Source: an uncultured Desulfuromonadales bacterium (lineage in GTDB: Bacteria > Desulfobacterota > Desulfuromonadia > Desulfuromonadales > Geopsychrobacteraceae). Taken from it: a stretch of DNA of 11,954 nt. The DNA is taken from assembly GCA_945787295.1 (NCBI GenBank), contig CALZHQ010000098.1, positions 1 through 11,954 on the forward strand. The letters run 5' to 3'. Below, in pieces: positions 2,502 to 3,434 of the stretch (its first letter is position 1; each line of letters begins with the position of its first letter). The notes under the pieces are model-generated. The model was given only the letters and a program-made list of their open reading frames with translations, made no database searches and was not told where the DNA came from. The position numbers and the translations under genes are program-made.

Positions 2502-3434
2502 TTAGATGTTCATGCTACCGACGAGCTCTTTAACTGCGGCAACAGAGTTGTCCATCAGAGCTTGCTCGGTCTCGTCAAGCTTCAGTTCGAGGATCTTCTC
2601 GATGCCGCCAGCGCCGATCACACAGTGGACACCAACATAGAAGTTATCAACACCATACTGGCCCTCAAGCAGAGCACACGTTGGCAGAACACGCTTCTGG
2701 TCCTTCAGGAAGGATTCAGCCATGGCAACAGCTGAAGATGCCGGGCTGTAGAAAGCGGAACCGTTACCAAGCAGCTTAACAACTTCGCCACCGGCAGCCT
2801 TGGTCCGCTCGACCATAGCGGTCATAACTTCCTGGGCCTTGGCAGCATTACCGTACTTCTGCTCGAGCAGTTCCATGACCGGAATACCTGCCACAGAGGC
2901 GTAACGAACCAACGGAACCATGGTGTCGCCGTGGCCGCCAAGAGTAATAGCGGATACGTCCTTGACGGAAACGCCCAGTTCCCAAGCGATAAACGCTGCG
3001 AAACGAGCGGAGTCGAGGACACCAGCCTGGCCACAAACGCGCTCCGACGGGAAGCCGGTAATCTTCTGGCAGAGGGTAACCATTGTGACGAATGAATTCG
3101 GTGCGTACTGCTTGATGCCTTCGGACACAGAAGTCATGATCTTGGAGTTGACTTCGATCAGGTCATCCCGGCTCATGCCCGGCTTACGCGGCAGACCGGC
3201 GGTCACGATAACGACATCGGCACCTGCGATGTCTTTGTAATCATTGGTACCGGTTACGCTGACATCAAAACCGTCAACCGGGGCAGCCTCAGCAATATCC
3301 AGAGTCTTGCCCTGAGGCATGTTTTCGACGATGTCAAACAAAACGACATCACCCAGTTCGCGCAATGCACAAAGTTGAGCAAGTACGCCACCAATCTGTC
3401 CACCACCGATCAGAGCAATTTTTGGTCTAGCCAT
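2502..3434 (-). CDS. mdh: Malate dehydrogenase (LDH-like type) lacking the conserved NPxD loop
   Basis: This 310-residue NAD-dependent malate dehydrogenase of the lactate/malate dehydrogenase superfamily interconverts malate and oxaloacetate in the cytoplasm. Seen: Rossmann glycines GGGQIGG at 10-16, Asp34 for the NAD ribose, LPRKPGMSR at 81-89 with Arg83 (malate specificity) and Arg89, the catalytic pair Asp141 (LDSARF, with Arg144) and His168 (GGHGD). Family members are usually about 317-320 residues. Here the sequence goes [15 protein letters not shown] at 113-127, where relatives read approximately FVIVVSNPLDAMVTLCQK, so about eight residues with the Asn-Pro-x-Asp motif are missing in frame. 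That Asn contacts substrate and NAD, so activity is doubtful. The ATG has AAAGGAG at 3441-3447. It is monocistronic, with its own promoter at 3531-3559 and terminator at 2449-2476. Identity is certain; function is not. Confidence 0.9.

Follow-up and report, generated by a model that had tools for sequence, protein, structure and literature searches.

The closest known system to the gene described here is the lactate dehydrogenase (LDH)-like malate dehydrogenase (Mdh, or MDH) of Malonomonas rubra and its kin, which corresponds to NCBIfam TIGR01763 / PRK06223. The roles of the catalytic Arg, Arg, Asp, Arg and His residues in LDH-like MDH are set out in PMC4109310, which also places Asn140 among the first-shell active-site residues. 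The gene in question lies on contig CALZHQ010000098.1 of an uncultured Desulfuromonadales bacterium, and the entire contig of 11,954 bases was analyzed as a single window; this contig is probably of metagenomic origin. The gene is the mdh open reading frame at 2502..3434 (-), which encodes 310 residues, as the original prediction had it, and is eight codons shorter than the 318-residue proteins of the nearest kin. Asn140 is taken here to be the Asn of the NPLD motif, and residue numbers in window Mdh are presumed to correspond to those of the enzyme for which the catalytic roles were assigned.

The nearest loci include M. rubra DSM 5091 (L001) and the M. rubra metagenome-assembled genome (MAG) SZUA-375 (L002). 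Window Mdh is 92.8% identical by tblastn to each of loci L001-L004, with the gap counted, and at the DNA level mdh is 86% identical to L001 and 88% to L002. The window shares with these kin the korDAB neighbours and the catalytic Arg, Asp and His residues, all five of which (Arg83, Arg89, Asp141, Arg144 and His168) are present as predicted. It differs from M. rubra Mdh in lacking IIISNPLD and in reading KQYAPNS before the gap, where L001 reads RDNAPDA. In the structures 4ros (Methylobacterium extorquens) and 4plh/4plw (ancestral apicomplexan MDH), the NPLD stretch of the chains aligns to this gap. The TIGR01763 profile still assigns window Mdh to the family (383.7 bits against a curated cut-off of 351.85), and PF00056 and PF02866 both score above cut-off, with PF00056 covered only at positions 2-118 of 141; the NPxD turn with its active-site Asn, a mark of the family, is absent.

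The best reading of this locus, held with as much doubt as belief, is a recent, strain-level deletion that inactivates Mdh in an uncultured, Malonomonas-like Desulfuromonadales bacterium. Such a 24-bp in-frame deletion would have taken the end of a Rossmann strand together with the NPLD turn and its first-shell active-site Asn, leaving a protein that may still fold and should have lost all or nearly all malate oxidation. A short tract resembling another lineage ends close to the gap, which could be the scar of inexact recombination inside mdh.

Loss of the NPLD turn

The 24-bp gap itself is confirmed. Window Mdh lacks exactly eight codons after Val116, IIISNPLD in the nearest kin, with a junction (GTCA|CAATGG, 3085..3086, minus strand) between window positions 3086 and 3085. 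The window sequence spanning this junction is GTCACAATGG, and the nearest kin read (N/D)(A/S)F(V/I)I(I/V)ISNPLDAMVTLCQK at the matching residues. Against the six best intact loci shown, these eight codons are the sole window-side gap in mdh, and the one-residue differences elsewhere in the alignment are kin-side. Alignment with intact kin thus bears out the original claim that the NPxD loop, including its Asn, was lost in frame (about eight residues, 24 bp). The location given for it, 3066..3098, was correct in its residues (113-124) and one codon short in its coordinates, the true span being 3098-3063.

Among the matches listed in a first search (the best 120 of at least 8000 scored), NPLD is present in 119 of 120 homologues. 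A second search on the gap region alone (the best 120 of 1125 matches) raised the count to 190 of 191, the exception in both cases being the window's own protein. The motif is also kept in all 80 genome loci, and the exact residues of the deleted junction were found in none of 277 genomes of the class, in a pattern search run without a positive control. A match was obtained in 33 of 44 genomes of the family, where the motif was not counted. Copies in phages and viruses were looked for and none was found. The alignment originally proposed as a check for a shifted motif therefore indicates that NPLD is missing rather than displaced.

Junction and repeats

The original prediction invoked slippage between two MVT codon repeats, as fitting either a natural deletion or a collapsed assembly. 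The window does read VT-MVT at the junction, in keeping with slippage, but the 79 aligned kin have a single MVT in the form ISNPLD(A/V)MVT (ISNPLDAMVTL in 78 and ISNPLDVMVTM in one). None of the 79 has MVT ahead of NPLD, and microhomology at the ends of the 24-bp deletion is zero in the nine kin printed. Replication slippage through MVT repeats was rejected on these grounds and is scarcely credible. The longest direct repeat within mdh is 8-12 bp in six kin, which appears too short for an assembler to collapse. With one MVT, no microhomology and no repeat beyond this length, the kin lend no support to slippage or to the collapse of a repeat. The junction codon in the window is ACA, most simply derived from the first base of an Ile codon and the last two bases of the Ala codon GCA, which is found at this place in 9 of the 79 aligned kin. 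If ACA is instead an altered Ala codon, the junction shifts one base to the left.

The patch beside the gap

Codons 108-117 (3084..3113, minus strand) abut the gap and hold all five amino-acid states by which window Mdh is unique relative to L001-L004: R108K, D109Q, N110Y, A114S and A117T. Four of the five match another lineage, and KQY is common to the window, L007 and L008. Outside these ten codons no state is unique in the same comparison, and each of the L001-L004 proteins has only two or three such states, which are scattered. Two reading patterns fit 177 of the 191 proteins, and the CGQ type accounts for 14 of those 177. At the upstream place Arg comes first in 13 of the 14, and KQY stands in the window's own protein. 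The seven CGQ-type loci carry RDN or REN.

Mosaic tests on window mdh placed a break at columns 404-408 with parents L003/L007 and at columns 398-408 with parents L003/L008, each matched by 0 of 2000 permutations, figures uncorrected for the eight tests made on the window. In this alignment the deletion occupies columns 348-371, counted from 0. The gap is close to a possible local mosaic junction. Our reading of the sequence, on which the data do not decide, is that the contig belongs to the Malonomonas lineage apart from a short recombinant or inherited tract that may end near the gap. Alternatively, the patch may have been left in the assembly graph by two strains that co-existed in the sample.

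Selection and lineage

The ratio of nonsynonymous to synonymous substitution rates (dN/dS) is 0.028-0.051 for window mdh against eight near kin, and 0.012-0.071 for the 28 pairs among those kin. Of the columns that are at least 95% conserved, a single one is changed in window Mdh, at A117T adjoining the gap, which gives the protein rank 19 of 80, with ties. In the kin rows shown, no window-side gap was found in korB, korA, korD, aspS, hisS or the GGDEF protein, in a comparison that leaves out comEC and has only partial matches for GGDEF and for one of the three hisS rows; the variable LysM protein is the exception among the neighbours. Taken together, the ordinary dN/dS, the one conserved column changed and the ungapped neighbours imply either a recent loss or none at all. 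Neither dN/dS nor the conserved-column changes support a long-standing pseudogene, which is judged unlikely from these comparisons.

The window, L001 and L002 form one clade in trees of 13 sequences each, with ultrafast bootstrap values of 98 for aspS and 99 for korA+korB+mdhC. The contig thus groups with M. rubra to either side of the gap, which speaks against a gross chimera of two lineages spliced together there. When the tree is built on mdh codons 1-116, the window joins L007+L008 (93) and L002 comes next (85). Against the single-lineage assignment, and from identities taken without a tree, the LysM gene is closer in DNA to L007 (0.658) than to L002 (0.617) or L001 (0.590). By the same measure, slight leanings to L007 are seen in hisS (0.773 versus 0.757 for L002 and 0.756 for L001) and in the stretch upstream of mdh (0.75 versus 0.72 and 0.69, respectively). 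The kor genes and the 3' part of mdh separate the Malonomonas lineage well from L007/L008, and aspS puts L001, L002, L004, L007 and L008 close together. It is possible from this pattern that the mdh(3')-kor block was exchanged long ago.

Predicted structure and activity

AlphaFold2 models were built for window Mdh and for intact L001, each from a 44-sequence alignment, and their mean predicted local distance difference test (pLDDT) scores are 82.7 and 84.0, respectively. The strand at 115-118 is retained in both models, and the helix after the turn runs over 123-134 in the L001 control versus 123-126 in the window model. The register of the model would put Leu121 in the window where kin have Asn121. 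The fold may survive. Malate oxidation is expected to be lost or nearly lost, because the active site is without its Asn.

A protein of the LDH/MDH fold that works, perhaps differently, without the NPxD turn is very unlikely. NPLD is kept in nearly every homologue listed, the helix after the turn is predicted to be shortened, and AlphaFold2 is insensitive to damaging changes. An adapted protein should, moreover, show unique states outside codons 108-117, and none is seen there relative to L001-L004.

The proposed search for another mdh or a malate:quinone oxidoreductase (Mqo) was made in eight kin genomes only. The PF00056 profile gave one strong match in each (mdh), with a second, weak match of 24-31 bits in three of the eight, two of them counted over cut-off. 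The PF06039 (Mqo) profile gave no match in these eight genomes versus 2 of 14 control genomes; malic enzyme and other routes were not searched. Mdh-deficient G. sulfurreducens is reported (Segura 2008, as cited in PMC7894505) to grow on hydrogen and not on acetate, so that an Mdh null can be viable. It is very unlikely that a natural population retains an LDH/MDH-fold protein without NPxD in place of its sole Mdh, whether it lives without malate oxidation (e.g. on hydrogen) or puts the protein to an altered use.

Real deletion or assembly artefact

A real deletion and an artefact are about evenly balanced, and an artefact is nearly as likely as a real deletion. In the artefact explanation, given somewhat less than an even chance, 24 bp were lost through a chimeric read, gap closure or a wrongly resolved strain bubble; if the sample held both KQY-type and RDN-type alleles, the assembly graph would break at this very place. 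It draws support from the single contig and single member, from the position of the gap against a patch that matches another allele type, and from the rest of the gene, whose evolution is much like that of a functional gene, as it should be if the true gene were intact. It has to contend with the lack of any repeat to drive a collapse, and with the absence of window-side gaps from every other gene compared except that of the variable LysM protein. The length of the loss is also divisible by three, an outcome to be expected from about one artefact in three.

Several observations weigh against a recent, inactivating deletion left by recombination. Window Mdh is one member on one contig, and no second carrier of the deletion appears in the 80 loci or among the 191 homologues listed; the deletion ends are also without microhomology, as noted above. 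An Mdh null would be costly, to judge from the kin genomes, since mdh is the sole strong PF00056 match in all eight and none has a PF06039 Mqo. Across the family the state at this place switches between KQY and RDN, so that KQY may have been inherited. Only two of the eight window mosaic tests, both with parent L003, reach 0 of 2000 permutations; the remaining figures per 2000 are 1399 for L002/L007, 1429 for L002/L008, 85 for L001/L007, 114 for L001/L008, 120 for L004/L007 and 96 for L001/L002. The L003/L007 break sits about 35 bp past the gap, and intact L002 also has a mosaic break, at columns 194-197 (10 of 2000). Finally, dN/dS between the window and L001-L004 (0.028-0.044) is somewhat above that among L001-L004 (0.022-0.030), and the window has 5 unique amino-acid states to 10 unique synonymous codons, compared with 2-3 to 12-21 in the other four. 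Both the higher dN/dS and the ratio of unique states would fit a slight relaxation of selection.

The finding is modest whichever way it falls. A real deletion would be a natural allele that inactivates an enzyme of central carbon metabolism, and metabolic reconstructions would be misled by profile-based annotation that still says malate dehydrogenase. If it is an artefact, a strain-variable patch can give a clean-looking, in-frame and wrong protein.

Neighbouring genes and signals

Downstream of mdh on the same strand lie homologues of korD (2049..2243, minus strand; 64 residues), korA (885..2027, minus strand) and korB (70..885, minus strand). All three are intact, as predicted, without gaps in the window relative to the kin rows shown; the korA alignment has a one-residue gap on the L006 side. 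The korD-like ferredoxin is named by position and resemblance, without a family search. On the 5' side of mdh, also on the same strand, are comEC, a GGDEF response regulator, hisS, aspS and a LysM/DUF4398 protein whose LysM and DUF4398 matches both fall slightly below the Pfam cut-offs. The hisS relative in the L002 MAG locus (L002:779-2050) has one stop inside its tblastn alignment. The GGDEF response regulator as listed starts with TTG and shares 40 bases with comEC (window 9317-9356), and its real start probably lies further downstream.

The promoter, ribosome-binding site and terminator of mdh were originally described as looking functional. The ribosome-binding site and spacer, AAAGGAGAGAGAA, can be read from the leader sequence at 3435..3447 (-), and a strong, terminator-like hairpin of 12 pairs lies 3' of the stop codon at 2449..2476 (-), where the 76-base stretch folds at -27.9 kcal/mol; a T-run terminator scan did not report this hairpin. 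A functional promoter is plausible: the promoter scan found none on the mdh strand, and TTGACA and TATACT were seen by eye in the leader 15 bases apart, one short of the scan range.

A palindrome, TTTGTATACTGTATACA, lies upstream of mdh at window 3526-3542 (-). Of the 26 nearest loci printed, 17 carry TGTATAC or GTATACA within the 250 bases that precede mdh, 16 of the 17 at 105-115 bases before the start; the overall count is 18 of 79 loci, with a background of 130 in 4000 random 250-mers. The palindrome looks like a candidate operator, and HgtR is a guess of ours at its regulator. A second short palindrome, TTGTATACAA, is found upstream of korD at window 2345-2354, as if mdh and kor might have a common regulator. 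Between the first palindrome and the start codon, the mdh leader also contains a nine-pair hairpin (TGCCTGTCGGTTGCGACAGGCG, window 3458-3479) that was flagged as terminator-like.
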